From positions 1-28,891 of IMG/VR virus record IMGVR_UViG_3300022928_000093: a stretch of 28,891 nt of DNA, one strand, 5' to 3'. The DNA comes from a virus. This document shows positions 13,119 through 26,907 of the stretch, in pieces (position 1 is the stretch's first letter; each line of letters begins with the position of its first letter). The translations under genes and the position numbers were made by a program. The notes beneath the pieces were generated by a model. The model was not told the DNA's origin. It did not search any database and was given only the letters and a program-made list of their open reading frames with translations.

Positions 13119-15297
13119 CTGATTGCGGGAGAACCTCAACGAATTCCTTTGCAAGAAGAGTTTGATTAAAGTATGTGAAGATATCATACGTGTCACTCAA
13201 TCCAATAACTCCAGCGAGTGAACCGAGCAAACTTTCTTCTAAAGGATTCGTGCCGATTATAATTTGGCAAGATAATAAACCGTTCGGGTCAAATGTATCA
13301 TAGTCCAATGCTATCCATTCGAATATCGCGTGATCTTTCAGGTAGACGGCAAGGTCAAAGGTCTTCGCCAGATCCATTTTACCTGCAGCATTCAAGAGTT
13401 TATATACAGCAACGCTGCCGTCTTTCTTTCCAGAAGGTATAGCATTCAACACACCATCGTCAAATTCTACTTCGGGCAACAGATCAGCATAACCTTCTGT
13501 TACAACAAAACGTTGGTTTTTAAACGCAGGAGCGTTATTCACCAAATCCACTATCTCTGAGTGTTTGCGCAGATTATCGACCAAGGAAAGTTGATCTACC
13601 TTATTGTTAGATAAATTGCTAGTAGATCTTGGGTCGCCTATGCTACCAAGGTATTCACCAAGTGTCTGCGTATCGGATAGTTTTGTAGCAGCGGTAAATT
13701 CTTTGTGCCAGTCGCGTTGTACATTTTTAGAATAACGCGGATCGCTTAATCTTTCTGGTATGGTTTTTCTTCCAGCAGAAAACTTCTTGCTGCGGTTCTC
13801 TAATGGATTGCCGAGAAGCGTTTCGCCAAGGTATTCACCGACCTCGGCGTTTTCTACACGACCAATCGCTGGCGGCGTTGGGTTATTATAGAACTTTGAT
13901 AGTCGCCCTTCTTTCAGCAGTGTCTGAATACAAGATGCTTGGTTTACGGTTGGCGACCTAAGATTAAATGCTCTGAACGCTGAACGTATTTCATGAATAG
14001 AAGGTTCGCTTCTGAAATAGTGGAAATAATTATCATAAATCGAGACGTTCAGTTGCGAGGTGCTGTCATGATCGACATTTATATCTTTAATACCGTACTG
14101 ACTTGTCTCTAGGTACAATCCGGTGTTGGTTTGTTTTGCCGCTCGGTCAATGGCGCTGTCAATGTACCAAGGCATCGTCATCAACGGATCATAAGTATCA
14201 GGCACCTCGTAATCAGTTGTAGTTACGATGGTGGGGTTTATGCCGGAATTTGTACTTTTTGCTACCACGCATTCCTCAGCTTTGTTTGCCTGAAACGCAT
14301 GATCTGACGTAAATGATCGTCGCGCGAACTTCGACTTTTGGGCGAATTCAGCAGTCCATGCTTCGGTCGCCTTACCAACTAGACTTCCGTAAAAGGTTGT
14401 TTTGTCGCCGGAACCGTTATCAGGTCCGGTGTACAACTTGCCGAAGTGATCAACTGAGTTGCCGCCTATCTTACCAGCAGTCCCAACTGCATAAATTTCT
14501 TCACCTACGATACTCGACTTCTTACCTGATATCGCAACGTTTCTCTTTGATGTCATCTTAACATCATCGCTAGAATGAATTAAGTATTCGCCGTTGGTGT
14601 AGTTCTCGATACTGGTCTTACCTGCATGACGATAGGTTTGCAGGTTGAGTTTGAATTCATTACCGCCAACCGTACTTTGCTTGTTGCCGCGCACCACTTC
14701 ACTGGATGTGCGTGTTACTTCAACACGCTTCATATCGCCCACAAACTCGCTGTAACTAGACTTAGCATTTACGTTATAGTTGCCGCCAACATTTACGTTG
14801 TAGTCGCCTGTTACGTTGAGTGTAAGACTGCCTTCGTATGTTATCTCACCGTTACCACCAATGGTAACTTTCTGATCGCCGGCAGATACTTGTATCGTGT
14901 TCTTCCGAGAATTAATAATCAACGAACCGTCTGGTTTCATTTCAACGCCAGCACCAGTTTCGTGTTTGATTAATATACGCTCGCCACCAGGAGTATCGTC
15001 AATCTCAATGACGTGGCCGCTCGGCGTTTCGTTTACCTGATTAAATGGGTACAGAGATGCTTTCTGTGGTTGTATCTCATAACTGATACCATATGTCGAC
15101 CCCCCATAGTGAAGGTCGTTTATCTTGGCGCCAGTCGCTGCTTTGTTAATAGAAGAATTGAAGAAATAATCCCTGCGCGGATACTCGCCAGTGGGATCGA
15201 CCATGCCATCGATTGGTACACCGAGGGTAAACTCGCGCGGTTCACCAAGGGCATCATTCTGTAGTCGTTTCTGTAAACTGTCTTTATCAGTAGTCAT
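13114..15297 (-). CDS. 5C: gp5 C-terminal part: central spike needle protein with long extension
   Basis: 727 aa from the ATG at 15297. That start forms a TAATG joint with the amidase gene, as at the other hub and wedge joints; an in-frame ATG at 15312 would add five residues. DPTGEYPRRDYFFNSS (34-49) matches T4 gp5 DPTGQYPRR, and NETPSGHVIEIDDTPGGERI (89-108) matches T4 gp5 METESGHIQEFDDTPGQERY at the start of the triple-stranded beta-helix. Repeats such as NVTGDYNVNVGGNYNVN continue the helix to about 270. No OB-fold or lysozyme domain is present; those belong upstream in the operon. About 450 residues follow the needle, far beyond T4 gp5, and are unassigned; 596-682 faintly resembles a decayed M15-type peptidase. 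A role as the membrane-piercing needle at the baseplate centre is expected. Confidence 0.88.
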   Translation of the reverse strand: MTTDKDSLQKRLQNDALGEPREFTLGVPIDGMVDPTGEYPRRDYFFNSSINKAATGAKINDLHYGGSTYGISYEIQPQKASLYPFNQVNETPSGHVIEIDDTPGGERILIKHETGAGVEMKPDGSLIINSRKNTIQVSAGDQKVTIGGNGEITYEGSLTLNVTGDYNVNVGGNYNVNAKSSYSEFVGDMKRVEVTRTSSEVVRGNKQSTVGGNEFKLNLQTYRHAGKTSIENYTNGEYLIHSSDDVKMTSKRNVAISGKKSSIVGEEIYAVGTAGKIGGNSVDHFGKLYTGPDNGSGDKTTFYGSLVGKATEAWTAEFAQKSKFARRSFTSDHAFQANKAEECVVAKSTNSGINPTIVTTTDYEVPDTYDPLMTMPWYIDSAIDRAAKQTNTGLYLETSQYGIKDINVDHDSTSQLNVSIYDNYFHYFRSEPSIHEIRSAFRAFNLRSPTVNQASCIQTLLKEGRLSKFYNNPTPPAIGRVENAEVGEYLGETLLGNPLENRSKKFSAGRKTIPERLSDPRYSKNVQRDWHKEFTAATKLSDTQTLGEYLGSIGDPRSTSNLSNNKVDQLSLVDNLRKHSEIVDLVNNAPAFKNQRFVVTEGYADLLPEVEFDDGVLNAIPSGKKDGSVAVYKLLNAAGKMDLAKTFDLAVYLKDHAIFEWIALDYDTFDPNGLLSCQIIIGTNPLEESLLGSLAGVIGLSDTYDIFTYFNQTLLAKEFVEVLPQSV

Positions 15298-16625
15298 TAA
15301 TATGGCACCCAATCATTTCTTGTTACGCCTGTGCTCGTCACGAAGTTGTTAATTTCTGCAGTGGTAAAAGGTTCTTGAGTGAACGTGTCAGTAAATAAAT
15401 TCAATTTGTTAAACTTACTATAAACATACTCTATGACATCAAACCCAGGATCGGTTTCATTATCATCAATATCATTATGACCCAATATCTGCATTCCTGG
15501 GTAATGTAAAAAGACCACCTTCAAGAACTGATAGAAAGTATTGAACTGTTCCCGTGTCAATGAAGATGCAGAAGAAAACTCTTCAACCAAAGAATCGCCA
15601 GTGGAAACATTTACACCACCAACAAAAGCAAGTCCTATGCTGCGCGAGTTATGCGAGTTAATTGGAGCATGCTCACCATCCAAGTCCGCAGGTCTGCCTC
15701 TCTGTAAAGAACCGTCTCTACGAATTATATAGTGGTACCCTATACCTTCATGACCCAACAATCTATGCGTCTCATCAATCTGCTCGGCGATTAAATTAGC
15801 ATTGGTGTACGTTTCGGTAGAGTGAACAACCACCTCGGTCACTTCTCGAGTGATATTTCTTATCTCAGCATGTAACTCTTCCAACGAAGAAATAAAGGTA
15901 AACTGAGGATCGCCATTTTCCCAGTCGAAGAGGTTATTGCCTATTTCGTATTTCTCTGGGAAAATACCAACCGTGCTGTTTAGAACAATGGTTCCGGCAA
16001 TCGTCACATCAAGTTGCCCGAGTAACTGTGCGAGGACGCTCGCTGGTTGATCTGAATACTCTGCTAGTATTTCCGCAGCTGCCTCGTCGTTGCCCTTCTG
16101 CAACTCTGCTGCTATTTGTTGTTGCGCTTCTTCAGGAATAGGCGAAGTTGCTAAACCCTGTATCACCTCGTTAACACCACCGCCTGTGGTTGCAATGATA
16201 TTTTCTAAGTAACCAACCTGTCCGCCAAAACTAGAGAAAAGATCATCAGCGTATCCTGTGATAAACGAACCATAGTCGCCGAGGTCAGAAAGAAATCCAG
16301 CAAGAGCATCTCCAATATTACCAAAGTCCAGAGAAGCAAATAACCCTGATTCGCTGAGCAAAGTCGCTAATATATCAGCAGGAAATTCAGTGAACTCGCT
16401 GAGCACAGCAGCGATAGCATCAAAGTCAGTTTCGAAATTACCTGTTAAGAGGTCAACTGGAGAAGGCAATAAATCTTTCAGTAAATCGAGCAAATTATCA
16501 GGTATGAGACTGGTTGCTATTCCTGATATGTCGGATATTTTATCCGTCACTGTATCTTGTGTTGCGTCGGTTACGACACCAGTCGCAATATCAGTTAGGT
16601 TGCTTGGCGGTTGTAGTAAACTCAT
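15297..16625 (-). CDS. Baseplate-associated N-acetylmuramoyl-L-alanine amidase protein
   Basis: 442 aa. Residues 1-245 are acidic, helix-prone and Leu/Ala-rich with no family I recognise; they may anchor the enzyme in the hub. Residues 262-405 are an Amidase_2/PGRP domain of the T7 lysozyme and AmpD type: EVVVHSTETY places the first zinc ligand at H268, GYHYIIRRDG gives the conserved Tyr at 297, SIGLAFVGG is the core strand, and LGHNDIDDNETDPGFDV supplies H383 and D392 as remaining ligands. The catalytic Lys of AmpD (HSDIAPGRKTDPG) appears replaced by E390 or by nothing, so activity is uncertain. No signal peptide is seen. It lies between the unknown protein and the gp5 needle gene, so it probably supplies the cell-wall-cutting function held by the lysozyme domain inside T4 gp5. 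Confidence 0.85.
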   Translation of the reverse strand: MSLLQPPSNLTDIATGVVTDATQDTVTDKISDISGIATSLIPDNLLDLLKDLLPSPVDLLTGNFETDFDAIAAVLSEFTEFPADILATLLSESGLFASLDFGNIGDALAGFLSDLGDYGSFITGYADDLFSSFGGQVGYLENIIATTGGGVNEVIQGLATSPIPEEAQQQIAAELQKGNDEAAAEILAEYSDQPASVLAQLLGQLDVTIAGTIVLNSTVGIFPEKYEIGNNLFDWENGDPQFTFISSLEELHAEIRNITREVTEVVVHSTETYTNANLIAEQIDETHRLLGHEGIGYHYIIRRDGSLQRGRPADLDGEHAPINSHNSRSIGLAFVGGVNVSTGDSLVEEFSSASSLTREQFNTFYQFLKVVFLHYPGMQILGHNDIDDNETDPGFDVIEYVYSKFNKLNLFTDTFTQEPFTTAEINNFVTSTGVTRNDWVPY

Positions 16626-17510: not shown

Positions 17511-18428
17511 TTATGACCAAATCGTATTATATGCTAGTTCGGAATTACTTTCTGACGTTGCTTTATCGGTATACTTATCCCTCGTTATACTCGAGAAATA
17601 ATATCTTCGAAACAACTCTGAGGAACCAAGACCTCTAACAGTGTTGCCGATACGAATACCATTATATGTTCCTTTTATTTCGCTCGCCTTCAACAATTTA
17701 GATGCCGCCAATCCTTGCGTTGTACGCAACTCTAATAGTATGTAGTTAAGTTGTACTTCAAAGTCTAGGTAAATTGCTTGCTGAAAGAACCTGCCTGCAA
17801 AGTTTAAATATCGTTTCCAACGATCGGATAGTTTTGACCATCCCGCGAGACCAGCAAGTTGTTGATCGTCGAAGGCAGAATCTAAACCGCTCACTGTTTC
17901 TAGGTTGCCCACTATGCCAGCAGATACAATATCGCTATAACCATTGTCGATAAAAAATTTCATCGCGATTTCACGTTTGCGTTCTAGCGGTTGGTCGTTG
18001 ATATTTTCGTATCCTGTTCGCTGAAAACCAAACTTGTTTTGTTGTAATACATCATAGGCACTTGGATTGGTCGAAGGATCATCCCTTCCCTGTGCTTGTA
18101 CTGACGTTGGATATTCAATCTTTGGAACCGACCCAAGAATAAAAGGCAACTGAGACATCTTACCATCAAGGAACACGCCAAATACTAATGCTCCTGGCAA
18201 CAGTTGAGGATTACCGCCGAGACCAGAAACGCCAAACATATTTCCTGGCATCATGACTTGCGCCCAAGGTAAATGCGACTGCGGTATATCATTGACGTCT
18301 TCGCTGTGTATGCCGTGAATACGAATCTTCACGCGTCCCTCAAACCCTGCCGGTGGACTGCCGTCGATGACCGTTGCCATAAACCAACGGGTCTGATCGC
18401 CATAATACTCTGAATGAAACTGATTCAT
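17511..18428 (-). CDS. 5: gp5 N-terminal part: OB-fold hub protein with decayed tail-lysozyme domain
   Basis: 305 aa. Residues 14-110 match the OB domain of T4 gp5: RWFMATVIDGSPPAGFEGRV then KIRIHGIHSED against T4 NWFVGVVEDRMDPLKLGRVR and VRVVGLHPP, followed by IPQSHLPWAQVMMPG against T4 IPTEKLPWMSVIQP, and a shared GALVFGVFLDGK strand. Residues 150-290 look like the phage tail lysozyme fold (Phage_lysozyme2 type): AMKFFIDNGYSDIVSAGIVG then NLETVSGL, LAGLAGWS, and VQLNYILLELRTT. In active members the second part reads GNLxxESG and GIAQW; here V179 stands at the catalytic Glu and G196 at the Gln. The gene stops before the needle, which is encoded further downstream. It overlaps the hub gene upstream by ATGA. 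In T4 this part binds the gp27 torus. Confidence 0.85.
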   Translation of the reverse strand: MNQFHSEYYGDQTRWFMATVIDGSPPAGFEGRVKIRIHGIHSEDVNDIPQSHLPWAQVMMPGNMFGVSGLGGNPQLLPGALVFGVFLDGKMSQLPFILGSVPKIEYPTSVQAQGRDDPSTNPSAYDVLQQNKFGFQRTGYENINDQPLERKREIAMKFFIDNGYSDIVSAGIVGNLETVSGLDSAFDDQQLAGLAGWSKLSDRWKRYLNFAGRFFQQAIYLDFEVQLNYILLELRTTQGLAASKLLKASEIKGTYNGIRIGNTVRGLGSSELFRRYYFSSITRDKYTDKATSESNSELAYNTIWS

Positions 18429-22659: not shown

Positions 22660-23247
22660 ATGGCAAGTAACTTATTCAAAACCTTAGAATACGAAGCATT
22701 TCGGGCAGGAATCAATCCTAGGACCAAGCAGTCAAGAGATTGGTTTCGCAAGAAAGCGCAAGAGATCACTTCTGTAAACCGCAGAGGGATCGTCCGTGAC
22801 GAGCCGATAAAGAGCAAGTCTAACTTTATTATCGGCGAGATGTATATGTACTTCTACGACCCGAAACATAAAGAAACGCTTCCGTACTATGACAAGTTTC
22901 CACTGACGATCATCGTTGATTTCGCGAAAGACGGGTTTTATGGATTGAATCTGCATTACTTGCCGATGACTTTGCGCGCGAAGTTCCTTGACGGACTGCT
23001 CGATACTGCGACCAATGAAAAATATGACAAGAGCACACGGTTCAGAGTAACTTATAACATGCTAAAAAGATCGAGCAAGATGCGTTACTTCAAACCTTGC
23101 TTCAAACACTATCTTGGCGATCATGTCAGAGGCAACTTTGCTTATGTGCCACCAGCAGAATGGGAGATAGCAACCTTCTTACCAACTGCTGACTTTAAAG
23201 GTGCTACAGAAAATAAAGTATACAGAGATTCTAGGAAAGCAATTTAA
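22660..23247 (+). CDS. Conserved T4-like phage protein, possible gp2-like
   Basis: 195 aa. I recognise the central block (FIIGEMYMYFYDPKHKETLP then YYDKFPLTIIVDFAKDGFYG and LNLHYLPMTLRAKFLDGLLD, residues 56-115) as conserved among T4-like phages but cannot name it with confidence. The N-terminus (KTLEYEAFRAGINPRTKQSR then DWFRKKAQEI) is basic and helical, suited to nucleic acid binding. In T4 the neighbour of gene 4 is gene 2 (DNA end protector), so gp2 is the best positional guess; this is weak. It begins 8 nt after the glycosyltransferase gene and ends in a TAATG joint with the gp54-like gene. No membrane segment or catalytic motif was noticed. Confidence 0.85.
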   Translation: MASNLFKTLEYEAFRAGINPRTKQSRDWFRKKAQEITSVNRRGIVRDEPIKSKSNFIIGEMYMYFYDPKHKETLPYYDKFPLTIIVDFAKDGFYGLNLHYLPMTLRAKFLDGLLDTATNEKYDKSTRFRVTYNMLKRSSKMRYFKPCFKHYLGDHVRGNFAYVPPAEWEIATFLPTADFKGATENKVYRDSRKAI

Positions 23248-24032
23248 TGACCTACAACATAGAACAGTTCAAGGCGCACATCTCCAAAGAACGCGGACTC
23301 GCGATGAGCAACCTGTTCGTTGTCGAGTTGCCTTCTTTAGCAGGCAAGAAACGCGCAGACGGCGGTGTCATATACAATTACCCGAGTAAAGAGTTCAATC
23401 TACTCTGTACTACCGCTGAACTTCCTGGTCGCCAAATACTCACAGCGGATCGACAGATTGGCATACCATTGACCAAGAATGCCTATGGATATGCGGTCAG
23501 CGATATCAATCTAACATTCTACGTGTCCAACACCTACAAAATAAAATCATACTTTGAAGACTGGATGGGCATCGCAGTTTCTAATGCTGCGCCGTATGAG
23601 ATTGGTTACTATGACGACTACGTGCAGGATATAAAGGTTCACCAGTTGAGAAAGGGTGAGTTATTTAAAGGACTAGATATTGACTTGGGGTTTGATCTAG
23701 GGTTGCCTCAGGGTGTAGAGGATGCGCTTCCTACTATTGGAGGCATAGACTTGGGCGAGTTGTCTGAAGGCAATCTAAGTATTGATATAAGAAGTGCAGA
23801 GAACACGGTTTATACCTGTTCATTGTTTGAAGCATTCCCGACTTCAATGACAGCGATACCTTTGTCGAATCAACAAAACGCATTGGTAGAATTTAGTGTA
23901 TCATTGAGTTATAAGAATTGGAGAGGAGAGTTTCCTCAGCAGAGTAAGACTACATCTGACACTGTGGAGGATACGGTCCGTGACATTGTCGATGCCGGAA
24001 CTGATATTGTGACTGATGTTTTAGGTTTGTAA
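23247..24032 (+). CDS. 54: gp54-like tail-tube initiator protein
   Basis: 261 aa; T4 gp54 is 320. The start TYNIEQFKAHISKERGLAMS then NLFVVELPS follows T4 gp54 YSLEEFNNQAINADFQRNNM then FSCVFA. ELPGRQILTADRQIGI (about 58-73) and SDINLTFYVSNTYKIKSYFE then DWMGIAV (about 86-112) correspond to T4 MPENRLSYETDWNY and DPLVISFRMDSEACNYRAMQ then DWVNSV. NALVEFSVSLSYKNWRGEF near 214 matches the final strand. This is the tube fold shared by gp54, gp48 and gp19. In T4, gp54 is the last baseplate protein and the template for gp19 polymerisation. A Gly/Leu/Asp-rich insert (about 138-170) is not in T4. gp19 itself would be an alternative, but the N-terminus favours gp54. Confidence 0.75.
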   Translation: MTYNIEQFKAHISKERGLAMSNLFVVELPSLAGKKRADGGVIYNYPSKEFNLLCTTAELPGRQILTADRQIGIPLTKNAYGYAVSDINLTFYVSNTYKIKSYFEDWMGIAVSNAAPYEIGYYDDYVQDIKVHQLRKGELFKGLDIDLGFDLGLPQGVEDALPTIGGIDLGELSEGNLSIDIRSAENTVYTCSLFEAFPTSMTAIPLSNQQNALVEFSVSLSYKNWRGEFPQQSKTTSDTVEDTVRDIVDAGTDIVTDVLGL

Positions 24033-24049
24033 TTTTATAGGAGAATATA

Positions 24050-24769
24050 ATGGCTTTACCAAAGTTAAATGAAGTACCGATGTATGAAATGACTATTCCT
24101 TCAACAGGAAAGATGGTCAGATATAGACCCTATCTTGTGAAAGAAGAGAAAGTCATGATGATGGCATTTGAATCTGGCGAAACACGTGCAGCGTTGAGGT
24201 CAGTGATTGATACCATTGAAAAATGTCTTGAGGAAGGCGCTTCTATAAACATGAACGATTTGACTTTATTTGATATCGAATACATGTTTATTAAATTACG
24301 TTCCAAGTCGGTCGGCGAAGTTTCTAGTTTAGTTTCCCCATGCACCAACAGTGAGTGTAAACATAAAAATCCCATCGACGTTGACTTAGATTCCCTAGAA
24401 GTGATGGTCCCTAAAGACTCAAATGTTATTACGTTGACAGATAACGTGAAGGTTGAGTTCAGGTATCCTTCTTATAAGTCGATGTCTGAGACTAACATGG
24501 ACAAGGTAGAAGAAGACCCCGAAGTTGCCCTGGAAATGATATCAAGGTGTATCGTGGCAGTCTTACATGGTGATGAGAGAATTAGCAGCAAAGATGAAAG
24601 TCTTGAAGAATTGAAATCCTTTGTAGAAAGTTTAACTTCTTCTCAGTTTCAAAAGGTATCCAAATTCTTCTCAGATATGCCAAGGTTGGAAAAAGAAATA
24701 ACGTATATTTGCGAAAAGTGTAGCACGCAAAATACTATAATGCTGAAAGGAATTGATAGTTTTTTTTAG
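24050..24769 (+). CDS. 26: Baseplate hub/assembly protein gp26 (T4_baseplate family)
   Basis: 239 aa; T4 gp26 is 208. Family pattern: an N-terminal VPSxG-like strand pair (MYEMTIPSTGKMVRYRPYLV, 11-30), KEEKVMMMAFES, then an INMNDLTLFDIEYMFIKLRS block (66-85). A zinc ribbon is suggested by C98-x4-C103 and C221-x2-C224. The layout also resembles tail assembly chaperones of other tailed phages. In T4, gp26 is needed to build the hub. A good AGGAGAA ribosome binding site precedes the ATG. The end is unusual: eight T residues (24760-24767) include the heptamer T_TTT_TTT in the correct phase, followed at once by TAG, and the next ORF continues in the -1 frame. Frameshifting would yield a 302-aa fusion. 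Confidence 0.85.
   Translation: MALPKLNEVPMYEMTIPSTGKMVRYRPYLVKEEKVMMMAFESGETRAALRSVIDTIEKCLEEGASINMNDLTLFDIEYMFIKLRSKSVGEVSSLVSPCTNSECKHKNPIDVDLDSLEVMVPKDSNVITLTDNVKVEFRYPSYKSMSETNMDKVEEDPEVALEMISRCIVAVLHGDERISSKDESLEELKSFVESLTSSQFQKVSKFFSDMPRLEKEITYICEKCSTQNTIMLKGIDSFF
24760..24766 (+). promoter_or_regulatory. Candidate -1 ribosomal frameshift site T_TTT_TTT
   Basis: In the gp26 frame the codons are AGT TTT TTT TAG, so the heptamer T_TTT_TTT has exactly the X_XXY_YYZ phase and the stop is the next codon. A -1 slip reads TTA GTG TGC onward straight into the 62-codon ORF, with no stop between. The downstream sequence has only a weak 4-bp stem (TCAC/GTGA at 24780-24796), so any stimulator is not obvious. 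Confidence 0.6.
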
Positions 24770-24957
24770 TGTGCCTTTCTCACGATAACCTTGTGAATCA
24801 TTATAAAACCAACTTTGCCTTGATGCAGCATCATAATTATTCGTTAACTGAGTTGGAAAATATGATGCCGTGGGAAAGGGAAGTTTACGTGACTATGTTG
24901 ATTGAGTATATTAAGGAAGAGAACGAAAGAATAAAACAAAAAAACGCATCAAACTAG
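24769..24957 (+). CDS. Small ORF downstream of gp26, probably the frameshift extension
   Basis: 62 codons if started at GTG 24769, which overlaps the gp26 TAG by one base. No ribosome binding site lies near it; the nearest purine run (AAAGGA) is about 19 nt away and inside gp26. The product has KTNFALMQHHNYSLTELENM then MPWEREVYVTMLIEYIKEEN, a helical, amphipathic segment that I recognise as conserved next to gp26 in T4-like phages, though its name is uncertain (gp51 is possible by position). It lies in the -1 frame of gp26, and a slip at T_TTT_TTT would fuse it to gp26. It is in the same frame as the tape-measure-like gene, separated by one TAG and three sense codons. Independent translation from ATG at residue 19 is the alternative. 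Confidence 0.75.
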   Translation: MCLSHDNLVNHYKTNFALMQHHNYSLTELENMMPWEREVYVTMLIEYIKEENERIKQKNASN

Positions 24958-24966
24958 AGTTGCCGT

Positions 24967-26907
24967 ATGTCCGAATTAAAAACAGTCATAACCGAACTAC
25001 AAGACGAGAATATACAAGATAAATTAGAGGTAATTGCCTACTCTAATCTTGAGATACAGTATTGCCTTGAGTCTATAAAAGGTGTTATGAAAGAAATTCA
25101 TAACGTCTTGTCCGATACGTTATCTTTCAACATCGATGTTAAGGATAAAAAGGATAGAGCTGAACGGTTAGGGGAAGGCGATCGAGAAGAAGATCGGAGG
25201 GAAAGTAGAGAATCGCCGGAGAAAAAAGGTAAAATAGGCGATGCGTTTGCTGCCGGTAAAGAAGACTCTTCTTTTGGATACGGTTCTATATTTAGTAATT
25301 TGAAAGGAAGCATCACCGGAGTCCTAGCAGGAGTTGCTGGGTTCGCTGGTATGTTGACAGGGTTTACCGTTAGTCTAGCGAATCTTGTCGCAGGTCCTTT
25401 TATACTACTCGGCAAAGCAGCGTTTGCGGTGGGTTCCACATTAATAAAATTATCTGCTGGGTTGTTTAAGTTTGTCGGACAAATGGCGTTCAAGGGATTG
25501 GGGTTGCTCATAAACGCAGCGAAAGCAATTCGTTTGTTTATGTTGGGAACGTTTATTCCCGGAATGATTGGTGCTTTCAGTTCTATAATAACTGCTTTAA
25601 CGCCAGTTGTAGTCGCAGCGGCACCGTTCGTTCTGATAGGTTTAGCGATAGGTGCTGCATTGTTTGGTCTTTATAAACTATTAGAATCTGTGACAGAAAA
25701 CCTAGGATTTGATAGCATCGGGGATACTTTAAAATATGCTGTTTTAAAGTTGAAAGATGGATTATTCTCAGTAGTAAACTCTATACTCGGAATGTATAAC
25801 GCACTCATAGGTTTTGTAAAAAAGGTTATAAAACTTGCGCCTGATTTTTTAGTACCCCCCTCCTTGAAAGAGTTTGCTAACAGCGGTGCCGGTGAAGCGA
25901 AAATGCTGGATACTAATTCGGCAGAAAGGTTTAAGGAATCAAAAAACAAGGAAAAGGAAGAAAAGGAAAAAAAGGAAAGGGAAGAAAAGGAAAAGGAAGA
26001 AGAAGATACCAACAAGCCAATGAATGCATATGAACGTGCAAAGGCAAGGGAAAATCGCGCAGAAGCAATGGCAGCAGGTGCTATGGCAGTGGACAAAGAC
26101 GGCAATCCTGTTGATACTGGTGCTGCAGCAGCAGTTGATGCCGCTGCCGCGACGATATCTGACGAACGCGCTGCTCTACAAGAACAGATACGTGCACTTG
26201 ACGCAAAGGTATATGACAGAGCGACTTATGAAGGTCTAAGCAAAGAAGAAAAGATTGCCAAGCGCAATGCGTTGATGGCAGAACTATCAGAACTCAGCGC
26301 GAAGAATAAAGAACTGCGCAATAAAGAAAATGCGGCATTTGCTGAAGTTGAAGCTGCTGAAAATTCTATGACCTTTGGCGGTGGCGATAATTTCTATGCT
26401 GGTACTGATGGCGATCTAGAAGATACCAGCGGCATGGTATTGAAGAGTTCTACTGGCGGAACTACTGTTACGGGTGGAGAAGAAACAACCACTGCCGTCA
26501 GTGCTGCTCAGTTAGAGAAGGATAAGAAAGATGTGTCCGCTGAGCAAGCACGCTTCAAAGCAGGGCAAGAAGCGTTCAAGCAAATGGCGCAAGAAAGATT
26601 AGTCGGTGCCAATGAGTTTATCATGGACGACGATCCTAGATATGCTGAACTGCAGAAACGAACTGAAGCAATAATGTCAGGAAAAAATCTGCAGGGTGTT
26701 GGTAAGATCGCTTCTTTGACGGGTCAACTGCAAGACGTAACTGCTCAGATTAAAGCAGCGACCAGCGCGGCATCTGGCGGAACATCAATCGTCGCCGCAA
26801 CAAATAATAATGTGTCTAATGCTACCATCACCAATCAGACTACGATGCCGATGCCTCCATCAACTGATACTTCTGATCGGTACGCAAGTCAGTTTGGCGC
26901 GAGATAA
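24967..26907 (+). CDS. Tape-measure-like hub protein (gp29 position)
   Basis: 646 aa. N-terminal 1-55 is a coiled-coil-prone helix (VITELQDENIQDKLEVIAYS); 58-90 is highly charged; 108-290 is strongly hydrophobic with Gly/Ala-rich helices (GVLAGVAGFAGMLTGFTVSL, VVVAAAPFVLIGLAIGAALF); 319-350 is almost pure Lys/Glu (KESKNKEKEEKEKKEREEKE); then long helical segments to about 590 and a Ser/Thr/Asn-rich tail (NATITNQTTMPMPPSTDTSD). Long helices with central hydrophobic blocks are the hallmark of tail tape-measure proteins, and the position directly after gp26 and its -1 ORF is where tape-measure genes sit. T4 gp29 (590 aa) is the likely functional equivalent; I see no convincing linear match. The last codons abut the terminator hairpin. 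Confidence 0.7.
   Translation: MSELKTVITELQDENIQDKLEVIAYSNLEIQYCLESIKGVMKEIHNVLSDTLSFNIDVKDKKDRAERLGEGDREEDRRESRESPEKKGKIGDAFAAGKEDSSFGYGSIFSNLKGSITGVLAGVAGFAGMLTGFTVSLANLVAGPFILLGKAAFAVGSTLIKLSAGLFKFVGQMAFKGLGLLINAAKAIRLFMLGTFIPGMIGAFSSIITALTPVVVAAAPFVLIGLAIGAALFGLYKLLESVTENLGFDSIGDTLKYAVLKLKDGLFSVVNSILGMYNALIGFVKKVIKLAPDFLVPPSLKEFANSGAGEAKMLDTNSAERFKESKNKEKEEKEKKEREEKEKEEEDTNKPMNAYERAKARENRAEAMAAGAMAVDKDGNPVDTGAAAAVDAAAATISDERAALQEQIRALDAKVYDRATYEGLSKEEKIAKRNALMAELSELSAKNKELRNKENAAFAEVEAAENSMTFGGGDNFYAGTDGDLEDTSGMVLKSSTGGTTVTGGEETTTAVSAAQLEKDKKDVSAEQARFKAGQEAFKQMAQERLVGANEFIMDDDPRYAELQKRTEAIMSGKNLQGVGKIASLTGQLQDVTAQIKAATSAASGGTSIVAATNNNVSNATITNQTTMPMPPSTDTSDRYASQFGAR

Follow-up and report, generated by a model that had tools for sequence, protein, structure and literature searches.

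Genes and features at the locus

The window, by which we mean the whole 28,891-nucleotide stretch of viral DNA analysed here, carries on its plus strand a homologue of T4 gene 26 (24050–24769), whose 239-residue product corresponds to the short chaperone form (TAC-N). By sequence, this protein is a member of the T4_baseplate family (PF12322, E 4.6e-52; 177 bits against a cut-off of 24.5), and it also matches phrog_150 (E 2e-58). On the same strand, a gene for a tail-tube-like protein (23247–24032; phrog_45 tail tube, E 1e-34) lies upstream, and a 646-residue ORF downstream (24967–26907) probably encodes the tail tape measure protein. The earlier note had described this last gene as tape-measure-like. 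Its position and the annotation of relatives fit that description, since HTVC008M (L013) and Cr30 (L094) each have an annotated tape measure gene at the equivalent site, after one further small ORF, but recognition by sequence failed, the ORF giving no match in Pfam-type and phrog family searches and no tape measure homology by BLAST. The gene order of tube, gp26, extension and 646-residue ORF is common to the relatives, and the tape measure identity is positional.

Read directly, gene 26 ends in AGT (24758–24760), TTT (24761–24763), TTT (24764–24766) and TAG (24767–24769), giving the slippery heptamer T_TTT_TTT at 24760–24766 in the X_XXY_YYZ phase, with the zero-frame stop as the very next codon. 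A TAG at 24757–24759 closes the −1 frame, which is open from 24760 and reaches its stop at 24955–24957; fused to gene 26, this frame specifies a product of 302 amino acids. The extension itself (24766–24957 on the plus strand, 63 residues plus the stop) corresponds to a TAC-C domain. The only start codon near the beginning of this frame is a GTG at 24769, which has no Shine-Dalgarno sequence. The gene ending, the phase of the heptamer, the adjoining stop, the 302-residue fusion and the lone GTG without a ribosome binding site had all been described in the earlier note, and direct reading of the letters and translation of the joined frames bore them out.

The T8 run at 24760–24767 is the only run of eight T on the plus strand of the window. 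Among the 9,317 codons of its annotated genes, heptamers of the general slippery type occur in phase 26 times and T_TTT_TTN three times, and only the T_TTT_TTN at 24760 stands at the end of a gene.

The small ORF matches phrog_634 (baseplate hub assembly catalyst, E 7.7e-30) and, within phrog_150, aligns to C-terminal columns that immediately follow those matched by gp26. Its reading as the C-terminal domain of a gp51-like product, and not as a gene of its own, is supported.

Two other genes upstream of this locus were observed. A glycosyltransferase family 25 gene (PF01755, 21989–22651) is flanked by a gene for a TnsA-type nuclease, which is probably gp4-like, and by the gene for the DNA end protector; in C48C1 and HTVC008M, no gene separates head closure from end protector. 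Among the baseplate genes, a 442-residue protein (15297–16625) contains an N-acetylmuramoyl-L-alanine amidase domain (PF01510) and is encoded near a gp5-like OB/lysozyme protein (17511–18428).

Conservation of the slippery heptamer

We assembled a family of 92 sequences, including the window, from two scans of viral contigs and from phage records, and reduced it to a non-redundant set of 78, again with the window, sharing less than 80% identity with one another. The earlier note had proposed aligning the junction across T4-like relatives, and in this alignment T_TTT_TTN is present in the same phase in all 78 sequences while the preceding codon varies. That codon is GAT, AGT, TCT, AAT or GCT (Asp, Ser, Asn or Ala), always with T as its third base, and the heptamer may end in any of the four bases, the final codon being TTT in 47 sequences, TTC in 24, TTA in six and TTG in one. 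A zero-frame stop follows the heptamer after zero or one sense codon in 76 of the 78 (none in 35, one in 41), with three and nine intervening codons in one sequence each. Of the 231 codon columns, only those of the two slippery codons have a completely conserved third base; conservation of the third base reaches 97% at the start codon, about 86% at the next best column and 49% at the median. The heptamer is also kept in six distant T4-like lineages (Cr30, phiM7, ACP17, Aeromonas 65.2, Yut2 and a Schizotequatrovirus). This comparative evidence is decisive in showing that the junction is more than a chance arrangement, because the heptamer is in phase in every non-redundant member.

Two Phe codons before a stop might also reflect a constraint on the protein together with AT-rich codon use, with no recoding at all. 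The Phe pair is indeed conserved in the protein, and TTT makes up 76% of Phe codons in these genomes, yet the observed codon choices would arise with a chance of about 1e-26 under pooled codon use, with the sequences treated as independent. Even the GC-rich ACP17 retains GAT TTT TTC, whereas the gp26 genes of T4 and Klebsiella phage PWKp16, which have no such −1 frame after them, keep both Phe residues but write them TTC TTT. Protein-level constraint also leaves the conservation of the −1 frame unexplained, and we regard it as exceedingly improbable.

Individual relatives depart from the common arrangement in other ways. In L061 (2205–2260) the heptamer is kept as AAT TTT TTC and the zero-frame stop comes nine codons further on, not zero or one. 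Vibrio phage D528 (L100, 3570–3770) reads TCA CTT TTC AAG TAA, without the full heptamer; its −1 frame is still open and contains a domain with the motif MPWH.

Relation to T4 gp26 and gp51

Genes 26 and 51 of T4 lie next to each other on opposite strands and diverge. Both products match PF12322 (gp51 with E 3.9e-52), and gp51 matches phrog_150 over its whole length as well as phrog_634. A profile that we built from the small domain matches T4 gp51 at residues 207–244 (E 5e-9) and also PWKp16 gp51, and gave no match to the gp26 of either phage. Judged from these sequences, T4 gp26 and gp51 are paralogues. Because of the PF12322, phrog_634 and phrog_150 matches and the profile match at residues 207–244, T4 gp51 is a contiguous counterpart of the putative frameshift product, with a gp26-like domain and a C domain that meet at the equivalent point. 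The homologue of the window phage's short form is T4 gp26, and the corresponding T4 junction, GAG TTC TTT GAG, has no slippery site. T4 does without a frameshift because its two forms are encoded as separate, divergent genes. The earlier note's statement that T4 is not known to frameshift therefore holds, with the correction that T4 encodes both forms, as genes 26 and 51.

Expression of the C-terminal frame

Conservation of the −1 frame sets in at the slip site, and the first eight codons of this frame include a conserved LSHDxL stretch. Even so, none of these eight codons is ATG, GTG or TTG in 64 of 83 relatives, and a Shine-Dalgarno-like site precedes the first possible start in only 3 of 83. 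The GTG of the window is thus not a feature of the family, and a clear ribosome binding site with an ATG for the small ORF, which the earlier note had named as evidence against a fusion, is not general among the relatives.

Public records list the extension in relatives as a separate gp51 or as a hypothetical CDS, and none joins it to gp26. All seven inspected records of frameshift-type phages that annotate the extension list it separately (L011, 3783–3887; L012, 3720–3893; L013, 3753–3890; L094, 3702–3875; L095, 3714–3875; L098, 3729–3893; L099, 4816–4983), with some of the annotated starts lying well inside the conserved domain. In those seven records, a joined product should replace the separate small CDS.

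Such annotations, together with the GTG that overlaps the stop right at the junction of the window (TAGTG, with the stop TAG at 24767 and the start at 24769), would suit a separate small gene translated by termination and reinitiation. The general lack of early starts and of Shine-Dalgarno-like sites speaks against this, as does the finding that in several relatives an ATG closely follows the stop but is out of frame, for example in the TAATATG of L002. Reinitiation would further leave the invariant third bases of the slippery codons without explanation, and it sits poorly with T4 gp51, which is one contiguous fusion. The window phage taken by itself, with its GTG, might reinitiate; on the evidence of the family we consider this very unlikely, and favour a frameshift into the C-terminal frame.

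A Shine-Dalgarno-like element upstream of the heptamer

In the window, a Shine-Dalgarno-like element, AAAGGA (24746–24751, plus strand), ends 8 nt before the heptamer. Across the family, core 4-mers of this kind cluster with their starts 12–15 nt before the heptamer. Their mere presence is explained by the encoded amino acids, since 68 were observed against 66 expected from amino-acid content. The strength of pairing tells a different story: the anti-Shine-Dalgarno pairing energy is −6.14 kcal/mol, compared with −5.01 kcal/mol under synonymous codon sampling, a family-wide z of about −7.8 in the direction of stronger pairing, which does not translate into a strict probability as the sequences are related. 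The same test in 67 control windows elsewhere in the gene gave z values between −2.6 and +4.2. The element, 8–10 nt upstream, is thus a possible stimulator of recoding, and it may be a detail that has not been reported before. On the downstream side, a single-sequence fold was no better than shuffled sequences (z 0.29). Downstream RNA structure was rejected as a candidate stimulator, the alignment fold having yielded no more than a weak stem of which the T-run itself forms part.

T-runs can cause transcriptional slippage, and the T8 of the window could in principle let RNA polymerase slip and produce mRNAs of mixed length. T6 is too short for efficient slippage of this kind, which moreover needs no codon phase, whereas in 31 of the 78 family members the run is no longer than T6 (T_TTT_TTC, TTA or TTG) and the codon phase is invariant throughout. 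The Shine-Dalgarno-like element likewise points to ribosomes. Slippage during transcription is, in our judgement, highly improbable, and slippage of the ribosome remains the preferred reading.

Predicted structures

A comparison with viral models matched the confident AlphaFold2 model of gp26 (pLDDT 91) to T4-like hub proteins. When the gp26 model was compared with the PDB using Foldseek, the only match with appreciable probability was the HK97 tail assembly chaperone (2ob9; probability 0.60, with a weak E of 0.67), at most a suggestive likeness between a predicted fold and a solved one. A sequence search of solved structures found no relative. The C domain is predicted, with moderate confidence, to be helical, and a fold search with it returned no significant match. 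For T4, gp26 and gp51 have been listed as hub assembly chaperones, with gp51 absent from the final particle, in PMC3004832, which also cites studies that place gp26 in the hub.

Discussion

The anatomy of the junction, its conservation, selection at the level of codons and homology to T4 gp26 and gp51 are direct observations. From these we consider it very probable that the window phage makes both chaperone forms from one gene by a −1 ribosomal frameshift; T4 has its counterparts of the two in the separate genes 26 and 51. The earlier note's proposal that gp26 and the small ORF are the G/GT pair of a T4-like phage is supported, because the heptamer is in phase, the second ORF lacks usable starts and the fused product is homologous to T4 gp51.

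According to this model, most ribosomes would terminate at the end of gene 26 and release the 239-residue short tail-assembly chaperone. A minority, we infer, would slip back by one base while tRNA-Phe is paired with the final two codons within T_TTT_TTT, probably aided by the Shine-Dalgarno-like element 8–10 nt upstream, and would then read the −1 frame to give the 302-residue form with its additional, predicted helical C-terminal domain. If the roles follow those of lambda gpG/gpGT, coating of the tape measure protein would fall to the short form, and recruitment of tail tube subunits to the long one. Lambda is likewise our guide to the presumed slippage efficiency, stoichiometry and binding partners, and to the chaperone role itself.

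The slippery heptamer of lambda is G_GGA_AAG. The window differs from lambda both in its heptamer and in having the stop directly after it; the likeness drawn here is one of scheme. As here, lambda produces a short form and a −1 frameshifted long form, which act with the tape measure protein (PMC5009743), and the same earlier review lists T4 as the exception.

Our statistics, obtained independently, indicate frameshifting of the chaperone pair throughout a branch of T4-like phages, while T4 has two genes, and this provides a testable evolutionary contrast. It is possible, and we put it forward tentatively, that the frameshift signal forms a two-element cassette, in which a codon-selected internal Shine-Dalgarno stimulator 8–10 nt upstream of T_TTT_TTN is combined with a stop that usually follows within one codon. 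Such a cassette, kept by T4-like phages whose hosts differ widely, would tune the ratio of the chaperones in a dnaX-like manner, and it may be undescribed for this family.

The earlier note had suggested that the pair would bring the hub assembly genes of T4 under the chaperone scheme known from other phages; the suggestion fits but is not new, having been published in 2022. The abstract of that study reportedly states that frameshifting is apparently conserved in several T4-like groups and that T4 uses genes 26 and 51. The study (Vladimirov, Gautam & Davidson, Virology 566:9–15), which both PMC10885494 and PMC12846349 cite by title, seems, as far as these citing papers convey its content, to describe T4-like chaperones with a gp26-type short form and a frameshifted long form, as in the window phage, which would then be a new marine member. 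Poly-T sequences are described as frameshift signals in T4-like TAC-N genes in PMC12846349, which attributes this to Vladimirov et al. 2022. According to PMC10885494, certain T4-like phages do not frameshift but have a short gene alongside a longer one that is a fusion. A conserved −1 frameshift at the end of TAC-N is also found in the TAC locus of the Vandenendeviridae phage Adele (PMC12846349), which belongs to a different phage family and has a GTTTTT motif where the window has T_TTT_TTN.
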